From assembly GCA_018268395.1 (NCBI GenBank), contig JAFDWQ010000005.1:124001-188000 (forward strand): a stretch of 64,000 bases of DNA, given 5' to 3'. Positions 15,062-21,258 of the stretch are shown piece by piece. This DNA is from Armatimonadota bacterium (GTDB lineage Bacteria; Armatimonadota; Fimbriimonadia; Fimbriimonadales; Fimbriimonadaceae). Numbering within the stretch: position 1 is the first letter of the stretch; each line of letters opens with the position of its first letter. Under the pieces are notes generated by a model. That model saw only the letters and a list, made by a program, of their open reading frames with translations, was not told the DNA's origin and ran no database searches. Position numbers and translations under genes: made by a program.

Positions 15062-15327
15062 ATGCGGTTTCCTGGGTTGTTCCTCCGGACTTGGCAGAGT
15101 TCCGCCCGATTCCCTGCTTCGAGAGACCCAGGGGCGCGCACAAGTCCGTGCGTATTGGCTTTCGCCGGGGTGGAGTGTACCTGGGCGGTGGGGCGGGGGT
15201 CGGGAACCAGGCGCCCACTCCCGACTCTCGTCTTACCGACCTTGGGGTCGCGCTCGTCCTGGTGGTCGAGCTCTTGCGAGACCGCTCACGAGGAGGGTCG
15301 GGCACCTGCGAGACCGGCAACCTGGCG

Positions 15328-15420
15328 GCGGGTGGCCTGACCATGGGTGACCGCCTCCAGGGTGGCCGGGGTGAACGGGATGGACCGTGCCCGTTGCACC
15401 CCGGTTCCGAAGGAACGTCT
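15328..15420 (+). repeat. dispersed repeat family B, copy B1
   Basis: The unit starts GGTGGCCTGACCATGGGTGA, continues through a stem CGGGGTG-AACGGG / CCCGTT-GCACCCCG with loop ATGGACCGTG, and ends in a small hairpin GTTCCGAAGGAAC. It is a direct repeat of copy B2 at 18003. The two copies enclose the caspase-like gene cassette. Confidence 0.8.
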
Positions 15421-15650: not shown

Positions 15651-16763
15651 CTAAGTGGTCGTGTTTCCTTGCCCATCCTTTACATCAGGTACTTTCGAGC
15701 GTCCCATCGGGTATATGAAAATGAAGGGCACGACCAAGAGGGCGATCAAGCCTGCGCCTCCAAGGACTTCCCAAGGAAATCCGTTGTCTCCGACGCCTGT
15801 GGTACTCGCGGCTGCAATCCGGGATTGTTGAGTCTCTGAATTCTGCTTTGTCCCAGTTGTGATGTACTCCAAGAGTGGTTCGCCAGTCTCAGCGTCAATT
15901 CCGTACTCACCTAAATCGGTCGAAAGAATAGCGGCAACCCTGGCCTCGTGCCTTTGAGCCACGTCTACCCCATGTGTCGAGAGCATTGCCTCTGTCCCTC
16001 CTGGTCTTACTTCGAACCTAATACTGTCTTTGACGTTGTTGTCACCCGGCCACGAATACTGATCTGCCCGCGTACTGTCGCCACGAGAGGAGTAGTACTG
16101 GCGACAAGCCTCGAAAGTTGCTCTAAACTTCTCGGCTGCTTGTTCGCTGGTCATTAGCTTAAGTGGAGGAACGAATCGCCAGAGAGTGGAAGCATTGGAG
16201 GACAGTACATTGCCTGAAACAACGTCCAGTGTTACTGATGCTGAATTAGCGAAGCCAGCGTAGCCTACGACTGTCTCAATGAACATGCATTGCCACCTAT
16301 CAGCCTTGTTCAGCCGATCTTTGGCCGCGCCTGGTTCATCTGCAATCTTTCTGATGCTCTGTTCCTGCCAGTCGATGTCATCGAGACCAGATGCCGCAAG
16401 GAGCTGTCGTGCCCTTTTCCAAGCATCGGCGTCGCTCTTGATAACCCTTAGTTCACCTGCCAACCTTACTTTGAGCTTCTCGCCTGCCGTGACGTCAGAA
16501 AAGCCAACTAGATCCCCCGACTCCGAATTGATCGCCATGATGAACGAACTGTCCGCAGGCATTGCGCTCCATAGTGGCGGATCGCCTTTAACTCGCTGGA
16601 CACTCCGCATTTGAAGGTCGTCACTCTTGTAAGGTAGATCGAGGCTCTTGACATACGACGCAACTAACGCCTTCGCCGCAGCCTCGTCATATTTCTGTTG
16701 AGACTGGGCGCTTACCGACAGGAAGAGTGTAACAGTGACGGAGCAGATGGCTGCGTGCTTCAT
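15651..16763 (-). CDS. secreted, C-terminally membrane-anchored protein with PepSY-like repeats
   Basis: A 370-residue protein not assignable to a named family. A signal peptide covers about residues 1-20 and a single C-terminal TM (about 330-352) is followed by basic residues, so the bulk is extracytoplasmic. Three beta-hairpin units end in a D/S-x-x-(S/T)G turn (INSESGDLVGF, LDVVSGNVLSS, IDAETGEPLLEY), reminiscent of PepSY/FTP propeptide domains that inhibit or chaperone peptidases. It overlaps the preceding caspase-like gene by 4 bp (ATGA), so the two are translated together. Base composition is clearly richer in A+T than neighbours. The PepSY link is inference from pattern only. Confidence 0.75.
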   Translation of the reverse strand: MKHAAICSVTVTLFLSVSAQSQQKYDEAAAKALVASYVKSLDLPYKSDDLQMRSVQRVKGDPPLWSAMPADSSFIMAINSESGDLVGFSDVTAGEKLKVRLAGELRVIKSDADAWKRARQLLAASGLDDIDWQEQSIRKIADEPGAAKDRLNKADRWQCMFIETVVGYAGFANSASVTLDVVSGNVLSSNASTLWRFVPPLKLMTSEQAAEKFRATFEACRQYYSSRGDSTRADQYSWPGDNNVKDSIRFEVRPGGTEAMLSTHGVDVAQRHEARVAAILSTDLGEYGIDAETGEPLLEYITTGTKQNSETQQSRIAAASTTGVGDNGFPWEVLGGAGLIALLVVPFIFIYPMGRSKVPDVKDGQGNTTT

Positions 16764-17875
16764 AGTGGTCTATACCATTGTCCAGGAGTGATTAGATAGT
16801 GAGTGTGCGTGTAAACTCTCTTGATGCGCGTGTACTCATCACCGAAGATCGGGCAATCTGAGGAAGTTGAGGCAAGATGGCTTGTACTACCGACATGGAC
16901 AGGATCGGCTGTCTCAGAGTTCAATGTTAAGAACGTGTCGCGCGAAATTTGCACGGTCTTTCCAACGACAAGGAAACGAAAGAGCCATGAGACCCTGTTT
17001 TCTGCCTCGCGCAGGTATACGACGTCGCCCCAACCTATCATAGCTTGGTCAACTATGTCCGCTGAATATGCATCGTAGTATGGATACAATACGGTCTGAA
17101 AGTCTGAAGCGGAACCGCTGTTGCAGAAGTCCATTAGGGCAAAAGCCACGTAGGGATTATCAGTACTGTTTAGTGGTGGATACCCCGACCCGTTGCGGAG
17201 AGTGCGAACATTCTGATAGTCTTGTTCGCCGGAAACAGGCAGGGCATACATGCGCTCAATTACGGGTATTAGATTGTTGGTCTGATGCGCGGCACTGTTG
17301 CCATGGGTCGCCACGTAGTAAATCCCAGGATTGCTCATGCTGTCCGTGATGTCCAGACAAGCCCAACCGTATGAGGTGGTCGTTAAGAACCCGTAGTTGT
17401 GCCCAGTCAGCTGTGTGACTAATTCGGTCACGCCGTCTCCGCCGTTGTACTGAAGGAAGTCGTGTCGACCAAAGCCGACACAGCGGTTCTTGACTTCGAC
17501 GAAGTTTATGTCTTGAGCGATATCCCCCCATTGGTTTTTGCCCTTCATTTTGACTTCGACAATTGAACCGTTCGCAAAGTGGGTGCTGTCGAACATGATT
17601 TCAAGAACGATCTCAGGGACGTACTGCCCTTGATTGGGGTGAACCCAGTGGTGAACCAATTCCCCGTTCAAGTAGAGCCACGCTTCAACAATCTGTTCGG
17701 GATTCTCGTCCCGCCATACTTTCCCTGAGGCCCTTGCCTTGGTACCAGAAAAGTAGTGCGGCATGGAGTCGCCAGGAACTGGGACGGACGCCTGAATGGC
17801 TTGTGCCCAGACAAAGGTCATGGCAAGAAGTACTGCCGCACTTGACCTCCTAATGTTTTCAACCCATCGAACCAT
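16760..17875 (-). CDS. secreted caspase-like (C25/CHAT/DUF6345-type) putative cysteine peptidase
   Basis: A 371-residue exported protein with a signal peptide (about 1-30). An N-terminal beta-rich part (35-130) is followed by a region with caspase-fold hallmarks: a hydrophobic strand ending in YYVATHG (His191), a second strand ending in ALMDFCNSG (Cys251), then IGWGDVVYL before a helix, as in clan CD peptidases and DUF6345 proteins. His and Cys are 60 residues apart, consistent with a catalytic dyad. It is the first gene of a two-gene unit and overlaps the PepSY-like partner. The coding sequence is visibly AT-rich and lies between direct copies of repeat B, suggesting acquisition. No similarity search supports the fold, so function is provisional. 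Confidence 0.7.
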   Translation of the reverse strand: MVRWVENIRRSSAAVLLAMTFVWAQAIQASVPVPGDSMPHYFSGTKARASGKVWRDENPEQIVEAWLYLNGELVHHWVHPNQGQYVPEIVLEIMFDSTHFANGSIVEVKMKGKNQWGDIAQDINFVEVKNRCVGFGRHDFLQYNGGDGVTELVTQLTGHNYGFLTTTSYGWACLDITDSMSNPGIYYVATHGNSAAHQTNNLIPVIERMYALPVSGEQDYQNVRTLRNGSGYPPLNSTDNPYVAFALMDFCNSGSASDFQTVLYPYYDAYSADIVDQAMIGWGDVVYLREAENRVSWLFRFLVVGKTVQISRDTFLTLNSETADPVHVGSTSHLASTSSDCPIFGDEYTRIKRVYTHTHYLITPGQWYRPL

Positions 17876-17913
17876 GCCTTAATATATACCACAAGATTGC
17901 TAGGGTAAAGTCG

Positions 17914-18000
17914 CTGCCTCCAGACTCCGGACACAACCTCATTCCGCACACCGCCGATCCGTGCCTGGAGGCTTCGTCCGCACCGGCTCACAACGCGCGG
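17914..18000 (+). repeat. dispersed repeat family A, copy A1
   Basis: Begins CTGCCTCCAGACTCCGGACA and ends GGAGGCTTCGTCCGCACCGG plus CTCACAACGCGCGG. The internal arms CCTCCAG and CTGGAGG form the stem that defines the family. This copy is the most diverged in the loop. Confidence 0.75.
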
Positions 18001-18002
18001 AC

Positions 18003-18092
18003 GGGTGGCCTGACCATGGGTGACCTCCCGAAGGGTGGCCGGGCTGAAACGGGATGGTCCGTGCCCGTTTGCAGCCCGGTTCCGAAGGAACT
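18003..18092 (+). repeat. dispersed repeat family B, copy B2
   Basis: Same order as B1. Its main stem is CGGGCTG-AAACGGG / CCCGTTT-GCAGCCCG with loop ATGGTCCGTG, followed by the conserved GTTCCGAAGGAAC hairpin. Relative to B1, the G-C pair is flipped to C-G and an extra A is matched by an extra T. Confidence 0.8.
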
Positions 18093-18192
18093 TGCCTCCG
18101 TCCCTGGATCTGCGCGGTAGGGACTCGCAGCCACATGCATGGTTCTACCAGGGGTTGGTGCAGCGGACGTCATGTTAGGGCGCTTTTCTTTT

Positions 18193-18270
18193 GCTGCCTC
18201 CAGACTCCGGACACCACCTCAGACCGCACGCCGCCGAACCAGTCTGGAGGCTTCGTCCGCACCGGCTCAC
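18193..18270 (+). repeat. dispersed repeat family A, copy A2
   Basis: Nearly identical to A4 and to the inverted copy at 50601. The terminal arms CCTCCAGACT and AGTCTGGAGG enclose a 34-base GC-rich loop. Confidence 0.8.
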
Positions 18271-18272
18271 GA

Positions 18273-18340
18273 CGGGTGGCCTGACCATGGGTGACCTCCT
18301 CCCGGGTGGCAGGGGTGGAACGGACCTTCAAGAGCCTGGG
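18273..18340 (+). repeat. dispersed repeat family B, degenerate copy B3
   Basis: The head GGTGGCCTGACCATGGGTGA is perfect but the stem part has decayed (GGTGGCAGGGGTGGAACGGA). It follows A2 directly, so A and B occur here as a composite. Confidence 0.6.
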
Positions 18341-18403
18341 CTGTCCGCAGGGGACCCGTTCCGAGTCCAAACCGGCGGGTTTCTTGCCTCGCTCCAGGTT
18401 ATG

Positions 18404-18491
18404 GCTGCCTCCAGACTCCGGACACCACCTCACACCGCACGCCGCCGGACCTCGTCTGGAGGCTTCGTATGCACCGACTCACAACGCGCGG
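18404..18491 (+). repeat. dispersed repeat family A, copy A3
   Basis: Same order as A2, ending in CTCACAACGCGCGG like A1. Arms CCTCCAGAC and GTCTGGAGG are kept. Confidence 0.8.
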
Positions 18492-18505
18492 TTTCACGGG
18501 CCTGT

Positions 18506-18587
18506 TGCTGCCTCCAGACTCCGGACACCACCTCAGACCGCACGCCGCCGAACCCTAGTCTGGAGGCTTCCTCCGCACCGACTCCAA
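18506..18587 (+). repeat. dispersed repeat family A, copy A4
   Basis: Fourth direct copy. It is truncated at the 3' side after CTTCCTCCGCACCGACTC. Confidence 0.8.
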
Positions 18588-18696
18588 GTCTAGACACGCC
18601 GTCGTGAGGAAAACGTCGGCATCCGGGCCACCCCGGTTCTGATCGTGCCGTCTCCTGGCCAAGCAGGGGGAGGATTACCGCCGAAGCCGTCCGTCA

Positions 18697-18964: not shown

Positions 18965-20839
18965 TTGGGAGTCGTGCACAATCTCGTTCGGTCAGGGCCA
19001 CCGGAAGCCTTGGCTGCGTTCTTGAAGGCGAATCCCAAGGCGAGCAACGAACTCGACGAGGACGGTCGCCCGCCGCTTCACCACGTGCTTAAGGACGAGG
19101 AGCCCTCTCCTGAAATCGTGCGCCTGCTGCTCGAAGCCGGGGCCGATCCTCTGTTCGTCTACGTTGACAAGTTCCCTGAGCCTCCGGAAGGGCTTGACCT
19201 CGATTCGATCCTTTCCGACGAGCTCGACCTCGACCTTCCGAGCGAAATGATTTCGGGTTCATACGAGATCCGCGAGCCGCTGTTCGAGCTGGCGATTCTT
19301 CAAGGCGACTTCGACACTGTCCGACTATTCGTCGAGCACGGGGCCGACGTCCATGCCGCCAATTCCAGTGGTTACTCTTCCCTGTTGAGCGCCGTCTATG
19401 GAAGGAAAGAGAATCTGCCGCTGATCGAGTACCTCATCGGCCTTGGCGTCGATCTGATGCAGCCGAGCCAATACGGTGAAAGGCCCCTGACCGCTTCGGC
19501 GAAAAACGGCAAGTACTCTTATGTAAAAGCGCTCGTCGAGGCCGGTGCACACGAGGGTGTGCTCCAGTGGACGCCGCTCATCCGGTCGGTTGCGATCGGT
19601 TCGATCGAGGACGTGGAACGTGAGCTGACCCGAGGTCCGGATCTCGAAGCACGCGACGCGTCGGGGCACACGGCCATGGATGTCGCCATTTTGAAGGGCG
19701 ACATCGATGCGGCCATGCTGCTCCGTTCCTCCGGAGCGGCATTCTCAGCCACAAACGGGCGTCAAAATTCCGCAGTCTGCCTTGCCGTCCTCTCGGGAAG
19801 CACCGGCCTCGTCCAATGGTTGGTCGCCGAAGGTTGCCCGGTCGATAGCGTGGATAGAACGGGAGACACGGCGCTCGTCGTGGCCGTACATTCGGGTGAC
19901 GCGGCGATGATCCGGACGTTGCTCGACCTAGGCGCCGACCCGAACTTCAGCATGGACTATTCTAGCGTCTTCGATGGGCTCGTAGACAAGGAGAGCATCA
20001 TTAGTCTTCTGAGCGCCGGTGCCGATCCGACCCACCTGCGGTCTGACAATATTAGGGCCGTCTTAGGTTTCGGGCGAGCAGAGTTCGACAGTTTGGACTC
20101 TGTGACGGTCGCGGAGTACCGAGCGGCCAAGGACCCTCGCGAAGGGAGGTCGAACCCAGAGGACATGACCGGGCCGTTCAAGGTCGCAATGGTCAAATCG
20201 GGCTTTGACGCCTACGGCGCGCGTCAGCGCTTCAATGATCCTTCGAAATATGTTTGCCCGGTTCCTGGCTCGCGAGGCACTCCCGTCTGGTGCGCGGCCC
20301 GGTTTGGGCAGTCCATGACCATCCTTCCAGACGGTCGTGTGGTCTTGATCGCAGGCGAGCACGAGGACTGGTACGACCCAGATTTCTGCATCTACAACGA
20401 CGTTATCGTCGGCTGGCCGGACGGGGAGCTCCGCATCTACGGCTATCCGTTTTCGGTCTTTCCTCCGACGGACTTCCATACGGCCACTCTATTAGAGAGC
20501 TCTATCGCCATCATTGGCGGTCTGGGCTGTCTCGGGGAGAGGCAGGGAGACACGCCGGTCCTGAAACTGTCTACAAATGACTTCCGGATGGAGCCCGTGG
20601 CCACGAGCGGCCCATCACCCGGTCGGGTCTTCAAACACCGCGCAGAGTTGAGCGACGGCAAGATCAAAGTGTGGGGAGGGCAGGTCGTTAGGTTCATTGG
20701 CGGCAAAGAGGAGCACGTCCAGAATACGGCCGTCCATCTCTTGGATCTCGCAACAATGACATGGACAGCGGTCGAAGTCGGCGGGTGGCCAGACCTTGGT
20801 GACCTCCAGATGGGTGGCGGATGGCCTGACCATGCGTGA
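18965..20839 (+). CDS. ankyrin-repeat protein with C-terminal kelch-like region
   Basis: A 624-residue protein. Residues about 5-360 contain roughly ten ankyrin-type units, recognised by repeated LLEAGADP, VKALVEAGAH and LLDLGADPNF helices. From about 430 the sequence looks like a beta-propeller (TILPDGRVVLIAGE, HTATLLESSIAIIGG, AELSDGKIKVWGG), a kelch/galactose-oxidase pattern. No signal peptide is visible, so it is probably a cytoplasmic protein-interaction platform. Start is uncertain: TTG 18965 or GTG 18974. The last about 18 residues (GWPDLGDLQMGGGWPDHA) are encoded by family B repeat sequence, so the original C-terminus may have been replaced. It has no operon partner. Confidence 0.8.
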   Translation: MGVVHNLVRSGPPEALAAFLKANPKASNELDEDGRPPLHHVLKDEEPSPEIVRLLLEAGADPLFVYVDKFPEPPEGLDLDSILSDELDLDLPSEMISGSYEIREPLFELAILQGDFDTVRLFVEHGADVHAANSSGYSSLLSAVYGRKENLPLIEYLIGLGVDLMQPSQYGERPLTASAKNGKYSYVKALVEAGAHEGVLQWTPLIRSVAIGSIEDVERELTRGPDLEARDASGHTAMDVAILKGDIDAAMLLRSSGAAFSATNGRQNSAVCLAVLSGSTGLVQWLVAEGCPVDSVDRTGDTALVVAVHSGDAAMIRTLLDLGADPNFSMDYSSVFDGLVDKESIISLLSAGADPTHLRSDNIRAVLGFGRAEFDSLDSVTVAEYRAAKDPREGRSNPEDMTGPFKVAMVKSGFDAYGARQRFNDPSKYVCPVPGSRGTPVWCAARFGQSMTILPDGRVVLIAGEHEDWYDPDFCIYNDVIVGWPDGELRIYGYPFSVFPPTDFHTATLLESSIAIIGGLGCLGERQGDTPVLKLSTNDFRMEPVATSGPSPGRVFKHRAELSDGKIKVWGGQVVRFIGGKEEHVQNTAVHLLDLATMTWTAVEVGGWPDLGDLQMGGGWPDHA

Positions 20840-20905
20840 CCTCTCGCAGGGGTAGCCGGGCTGAAACGGGATGGTCCGTGCCCGTTCGCACCCCTGTCCG
20901 TCACA
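20781..20905 (+). repeat. dispersed repeat family B, copy B4 (with doubled head)
   Basis: Two head units (GGGTGGCCAGACC and GGATGGCCTGACCATG) precede the stem CGGGCTGAAACGGG and loop ATGGTCCGTG. The right arm is decayed. The head overlaps the 3' end of the ankyrin gene and supplies its stop codon. Confidence 0.7.
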
Positions 20906-21258
20906 CGGACCCTTAAAGCCTGGCCGTCATGGGTGCATTCGCGCTGTCGCGAGCCTCTCTTCGACTCCAAAAGGGCCGTTCCCGTGCCCCGTCCTAGGTT
21001 CCTTCGTACGCCACCCTCTGTGCTCGACACGTGCTCGACACGTGCTCGGAACGTGCTCGGAACGGCCGTGTCGAGCACGTGTCGAGCACATCCGGAGCAC
21101 ACGTCGAGCACAGACAGAAGCTACAGACGGCGCGTGGGCCGACCCAAGACGGCCGCGTCAAGAGTGGCCGTAACAAGGTGCCACGACCCTCCAGGCGGAC
21201 AAAGCGACGGGACCAGGGGAAGGCGCTCGGCCGGCCCCTGGATCCCTCGGTCAGACGC
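20840..21258. other. convergent intergenic region with repeat B4 and an 11-bp array
   Basis: Nothing in these 419 bases looks like a gene. The region separates the 3' ends of the ankyrin gene and the DUF4349 gene, so promoters are not expected. It contains most of B4 and the palindromic array at 21020-21111. Confidence 0.65.
21020..21111. repeat. palindromic 4+4 array of 11-bp units
   Basis: Four direct units (GTGCTCGACAC twice, GTGCTCGGAAC twice) are followed by a 4-base GGCC centre and four units in the opposite sense (GTGTCGAGCAC twice, ATCCGGAGCAC, ACGTCGAGCAC). Every unit is exactly 11 bp, about one DNA turn. The whole can fold into a hairpin of about 44 pairs with some mismatches, or serve as an iterated protein-binding site. 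Confidence 0.85.

Follow-up and report, generated by a model that had tools for sequence, protein, structure and literature searches.

PepSY/FTP domains are known as the propeptides of metallopeptidases, and in the thermolysin-type M4/M36 enzymes these propeptides both inhibit and fold their peptidase. Secreted cysteine peptidases with a dedicated, linked inhibitor gene are represented by the streptopain-Spi and staphopain-staphostatin pairs, and the gingipains provide an example of an Ig-like domain next to a catalytic domain. Clan CD and the His/Cys dyad of its families are the subject of a review (PMC4357240). A hydrolase and a PepSY protein also come together in SleB, the spore cortex lytic enzyme of Bacillus, and YpeB, a system that is known from spore formers and is not known as a mobile unit. 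The two are encoded in one conserved operon, with the membrane-anchored YpeB thought to hold SleB inactive (PMC13393411).

Here, we describe a pair of overlapping genes, A and B, in a 64,000-nucleotide stretch of DNA from a Fimbriimonadaceae genome of the phylum Armatimonadota (hereafter, the window). Like SleB-YpeB, the pair joins a hydrolase (predicted) to a PepSY partner in one operon, and the best fold match of B is the C-terminal domain of YpeB; however, SleB is a peptidoglycan lytic enzyme, whereas A is predicted to be peptidase-like. The one transmembrane segment of YpeB is N-terminal, and that of the window B is C-terminal. With the gingipains and Peptidase_C25, A shares predicted export, His and Cys residues at equivalent profile positions, a terminal GDP-type motif, and the presence of an Ig-like domain, but it falls below Pfam C25 detection, its Ig-like domain is N-terminal, and the putative inhibitor is carried on another chain. 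CHAT (PF12770) is the best profile match of the A C-terminal domain, yet the CHAT proteins of these genomes are mostly long and score well with PF12770, whereas A scores nothing and is predicted to be exported. The likeness of B to the M4/M36 propeptides lies in its fold; those propeptides sit within the same chain as a metallopeptidase, whereas B is separate and paired with the cysteine-peptidase-like A. The streptopain and staphopain pairs, in turn, differ in having clan CA peptidases and cytoplasmic inhibitors of unrelated folds. With a putative peptidase and a linked gene for a proposed dedicated restrainer, as in known pairs of a hydrolase or peptidase and its restrainer, the A-B pair would be of a known kind but of new make-up.

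Layout and composition of the locus

The features of the locus and its two products are as follows.

15651..16763, minus strand: gene B, encoding a predicted exported 370-aa triple PepSY/FTP-type protein (ORF, structure model, fold matches)
16760..17875, minus strand: gene A, encoding a predicted exported 371-aa protein (ORF, motifs, profile comparison)
16760..16763, minus strand: ATGA, shared by the stop of A and the start of B (sequence)
15325..15416, plus strand: dispersed, hairpin-forming repeat of ~95 bp, copy downstream of B (repeat search)
17997..18091, plus strand: second ~95-bp repeat copy, upstream of A, in direct orientation and 89% identical (repeat search)
Protein A, ~residues 25-131: Ig-like domain, behind a signal peptide (structure model, fold searches)
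Protein A, ~residues 132-371: putative clan CD-like (CHAT/C25-type) cysteine peptidase domain (His191, Cys251, terminal GD at 345-346)
Protein B, ~residues 331-350: predicted C-terminal membrane anchor (hydrophobic segment, basic residues after)

The original prediction, made from the letters alone, had described a low-GC cassette of two overlapping genes. Rereading the sequence confirmed both ORFs on the minus strand and their ATGA overlap, which makes translational coupling of A and B likely. GC content is 51-53% over 16-18 kb, where the pair lies, compared with 60-69% in the kilobases around it in this ~64% GC DNA, and the low-GC cassette was confirmed. All three motifs noted in A (YYVATHG with His191, DFCNSG with Cys251, and IGWGDVV) were found, as were the three turn motifs claimed in B, which read NSESG, VVSG, and DAETG. 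Pfam matches of the window genes place the pair upstream of rpsB-tsf-pyrH. The window is collinear with two congeneric genomes to ~15205, beyond which they differ.

Neither window protein is recognized by NCBIfam or Pfam. Annotation would therefore label both genes of the family hypothetical across Armatimonadota, a poorly studied phylum. PDB sequence searches returned nothing meaningful, and neither A, B, nor any of three homologues matched a PADLOC anti-phage model. A Pfam match of B to HCV_NS4b (E 0.12) was rejected as chance.

Protein B and the PepSY/FTP fold

The structure model of B reached a pLDDT of ~90 over most of residues 25-300 and contains three PepSY/FTP-type repeats. Its best structural match is the C-terminal domain of YpeB (Z 13.2, 210 residues, rmsd 6.9), and structure comparison also aligned it with the fungalysin propeptide (Z 9.0, 162 residues, rmsd 3.8) and with vibriolysin propeptides (Z 6.5). 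The Pfam PepSY model (PF03413) is matched by 9 of 25 B homologues, at best with 2.9e-6; the window B itself has no PepSY match in Pfam. Judged by its modeled fold, B belongs to the PepSY/FTP superfamily, as its description as PepSY-like had anticipated.

The membrane anchor proposed for B holds for the window protein, in which a C-terminal hydrophobic segment is followed by basic residues, but it is not general. In a simple hydropathy count over 86 full-length B homologues, a C-terminal hydrophobic segment was seen in 26 and an N-terminal one in 73, and C-terminal membrane tethering is predicted in some members only.

The matches to fungalysin and vibriolysin propeptides are also what one would expect if B were mainly a foldase for A, that is, a trans-acting propeptide or steric chaperone comparable to an M4 propeptide made as a separate protein, with inhibition secondary. 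The bearing of gene pairing and gene loss on this alternative is taken up below.

Protein A and clan CD peptidases

AlphaFold modeling of A from six sequences gave a pLDDT of 49.6, with low confidence in the C-terminal half and a usable model of the Ig-like domain alone. Fold searches with this model returned Ig-like folds and, given that only this part was usable, were uninformative on the peptidase domain. Because modeling had failed in the C-terminal half, we turned to profile comparison, in which a profile of this domain was aligned by hhalign with CHAT, C25, and C14 profiles built from Armatimonadota genomes, with reversed profiles as controls. CHAT was the best match (probability 94%, E 1.2e-7), followed by Peptidase_C25 (89%, E 2.4e-6); Peptidase_C14 reached a probability of 7% and the reversed controls 0.1%. 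In these alignments, the THG of A falls on the catalytic His of CHAT and C25, its Cys on the catalytic Cys, and its final GD on the terminal GD(P). The clan CD assignment of the original prediction is supported by these positions; within the clan, A stands nearer to CHAT and gingipains than to true caspases (C14), which we rejected as the nearest family.

A profile search found A homologues, ~22-38% identical to the window protein, in 38 of 291 Armatimonadota genomes, with a patchy distribution and often in multiple copies; the named relatives matched by the profile are MAGs of Fimbriimonadaceae, the window's own family. Seven residues (His191, Cys251, Asp346, Tyr355, Trp367, Asn130, and Ser97) are invariant across 34 aligned homologues. 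In a wider set of 55 homologues, the His191 column was kept in 53 of 54 and the Cys251 column in 53 of 53 (intact copies, or rows with a letter there), and Asp346 and Tyr355 were conserved in all 55. Taken together, the profile alignments and these columns are good evidence that the C-terminal domain is homologous to clan CD, with its dyad intact and His preceding Cys after hydrophobic strands. The profile comparison also speaks for a caspase-hemoglobinase alpha/beta/alpha fold of this half, which is therefore predicted.

On its conserved residues, A is clan CD peptidase-like, and it lies outside Pfam C25 and CHAT as these models stand. The window protein has no Pfam match at E up to 10. Peptidase_C25 (PF01364) is absent from the Pfam matches of 22 A homologues at E up to 1, and the CHAT cut-off is not reached, with one of the 22 matching PF12770 at E 0.091 only and the window A scoring nothing. 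Since its likeness to peptidases is visible by profile comparison only and Pfam is blind to it, A could be read as a non-catalytic clan CD-like adhesin or sensor, with B a PepSY signaling protein that has a role of its own and shares only the operon. Yet few columns of this divergent, phylum-wide family are as well conserved as His and Cys, and a dead enzyme would be unlikely to keep both; we regard this reading as improbable.

A Pfam scan of A homologues detected no delivery domain; in the window protein, the signal peptide is followed by the Ig-like and then the peptidase-like domain. A C-terminal hydrophobic segment was found in no A homologue by the simple hydropathy count.

A and B occur together

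The original prediction had suggested a search for the same gene order in other genomes. The A-B order is conserved, and in nearly all loci the gene directly downstream of A is B. Every intact A gene examined that has room on its contig has a PepSY-type neighbor, downstream in all but two, L171 and L192, where it is upstream. An apparent class of intact A genes without B (eight genes, and two more with a weak B match) was rejected when a divergent PepSY-type neighbor was found. Read by eye, these ten genes without a recognized or complete B all adjoin an open PepSY-type gene, except in the second unit of L158, where the neighbor is split by an apparent frameshift. At the genome level, 32 genomes have both genes, 6 have A only at the threshold used, and 20 have B only (Fisher p 5e-23), and B thus accompanies A across genomes as well as within loci. 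One genome (G027) carries tandem A-B arrays, with four pairs on each of two contigs and one or two of the A genes damaged. When the same pairs are compared, B is more divergent than A.

The conservation of His and Cys, the presence of A homologues in these 38 genomes, and the co-occurrence of A and B make the observation more than chance. Near-universal pairing, together with the ATGA coupling in the window, would also suit a foldase and its client.

The pair recurs across Armatimonadota. Beyond the phylum, our searches covered plasmids, phages, IMG/VR, and two GTDB pattern scans, and the range may be wider; no relatives were found in plasmids, phages, or IMG/VR. In the literature, we found no paper linking PepSY with a cysteine peptidase or with a CHAT domain.

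Movement of the pair

Two copies of the ~95-bp repeat, which has at least 41 matches across the window genome, bracket the A-B unit of the window. Direct repeats bracket the unit at 9 of 72 loci, as well as one L123 unit, and their orientation is always direct. One unit of the genome G020 lies between copies of a 264-bp repeat; in the related genome G044, the repeat is single and the unit is absent from that site. In another genome (G035), A and B lie between two exact copies of the 41-bp end of a tRNA-Arg gene, and that genome has no further copies. At 73 of 86 loci, the unit has a lower GC content than the flanking DNA. The presence/absence difference between G020 and G044, the direct repeats, and the tRNA-Arg duplication support movement of the A-B pair between genomes as a unit, in line with the earlier proposal that it was acquired as one.

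No recombinase of their own was found in the window and G035 units. The window genome has sub-threshold tyrosine recombinases only and no integron integrase above the cut-off, for which reason we rejected the idea of an integron gene cassette there. An integron integrase above the curated cut-off is present in two related Fimbriimonadaceae genomes, at L298 (G020) and L299 (G044). Beyond the tRNA-Arg repeat of G035 (L306 2651-7045, contig C1) lies a second B-like gene, with no integrase in between.

A is lost and B is kept

Loci were sorted by a simple script: A and B are both intact in 40, B is short in 4, A is broken with B open in 19 + 2, and 24 B genes have no A. The reverse case, an intact A with a frameshifted B, was seen once. 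This makes ~21 loci with A broken and B open against 1 (sign test 1e-5). In distant lineages, some of the partial A matches (L186, for example) may reflect divergence and not decay; restricted to close lineages, the count is ~16 against 1. Sequencing frameshifts would be expected to strike A and B alike. On the B tree, which has many long tip branches and weak deep nodes, the broken-A label needs 15 changes, and at least 10 when only well-supported branches are counted, which indicates that the cases of A loss are separate events.

The B genes left behind are under purifying selection. For two interspecies pairs of A-less B genes, dN/dS is 0.25 and 0.16, and B is thus selected without a linked A. 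Such selection could reflect a function of B that is unrelated to A. A foldase, however, would be expected to decay with or after its client, whereas B keeps its reading frame, under purifying selection, both at loci and in whole genomes that lack A. The outliving of A by B fits an inhibitor or immunity protein and fits a pure foldase less well, and we therefore consider a mainly chaperoning B unlikely.

G044 was set aside as a clean case of A lost and B kept, as its B is apparently without its first codons. At this site (L151 3530-6032), an unrelated transposase-like sequence abuts B where A and the first codons of B are missing relative to G020.

Proposed function

An exported peptidase with an exported inhibitor is the most economical account of A-B. 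Building on the observed gene pair, the B fold, the profile relationship of A, and the conservation, mobility, and lopsided decay described above, we lean somewhat toward a mobile pair in which an exported clan CD peptidase, A, is accompanied by a PepSY inhibitor, B, that protects the producer. A would leave the cytoplasm via its signal peptide and act as a CHAT/C25-like cysteine peptidase, with the His191/Cys251 dyad behind the Ig-like domain. B, also exported, would bind and restrain A outside the cytoplasm, inhibiting it in trans and so protecting the producing cell. Where B has outlived A, it may also guard against the peptidases of other cells, as orphan immunity. The occurrence of PepSY domains in proteins that inhibit nothing counts against an inhibitor. 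If B does restrain A, the reach of PepSY/FTP domains would extend beyond metallopeptidases to a cysteine peptidase of a different clan, on which they would act in trans.

A special case of this inhibitor reading is a toxin-immunity module, in which A attacks surface or periplasmic proteins of competitors, B protects against it, and A-less B genes serve as orphan immunity. Several observations would fit this: tandem A-B arrays as in G027, units that are present in one genome and absent from another and that move whole, recurrent loss of A from loci that retain B, selection on A-less B, the greater divergence of B between the same pairs, an adjacent partner in all intact units examined, and the kept orphan partner genes. 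Among polymorphic toxin systems, poly-immunity loci and a surplus of immunity genes are known (PMC3482391), and type VI effector loci can carry orphan immunity genes (PMC5361080). On the other hand, neither a delivery system nor a toxin leader domain was found for A, whose peptidase-like domain is preceded by a signal peptide and an Ig-like domain alone, and PepSY is absent from the portions consulted of the polymorphic toxin survey (PMC3482391). We therefore regard a toxin-immunity module as possible but doubtful. Tentative, too, is the phylum-wide picture that it would suggest, of mobile, exported caspase-like toxins with PepSY-fold immunity across Armatimonadota, their units traded at tRNA ends and repeats and orphan PepSY genes kept as protection. 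If this special case is true, the known means of bacterial competition would come to include an exported peptidase of clan CD and an immunity protein with a PepSY fold, and A-less B genes, which are many, could be tested directly as orphan immunity genes.

Other features of the window

Further copies of the ~95-bp repeat lie at window positions 18268-18323 and 20812-20905, and clusters of this repeat often bracket one or two genes, as with A-B and with an ankyrin/Kelch gene. The latter (18965-20839) encodes a 624-aa ankyrin-repeat and Kelch-like protein, is placed between two of the dispersed copies, and runs into the repeat at its end. A distinct family, an 88-nt intergenic repeat (GCTGCCTCCAGACTCCGGACAC...), is present in four copies at 17913-18594. 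Finally, a long inverted repeat at 21017-21114 has 49-nt arms and no spacer and is built of GTGCTCGACAC-like unit repeats.
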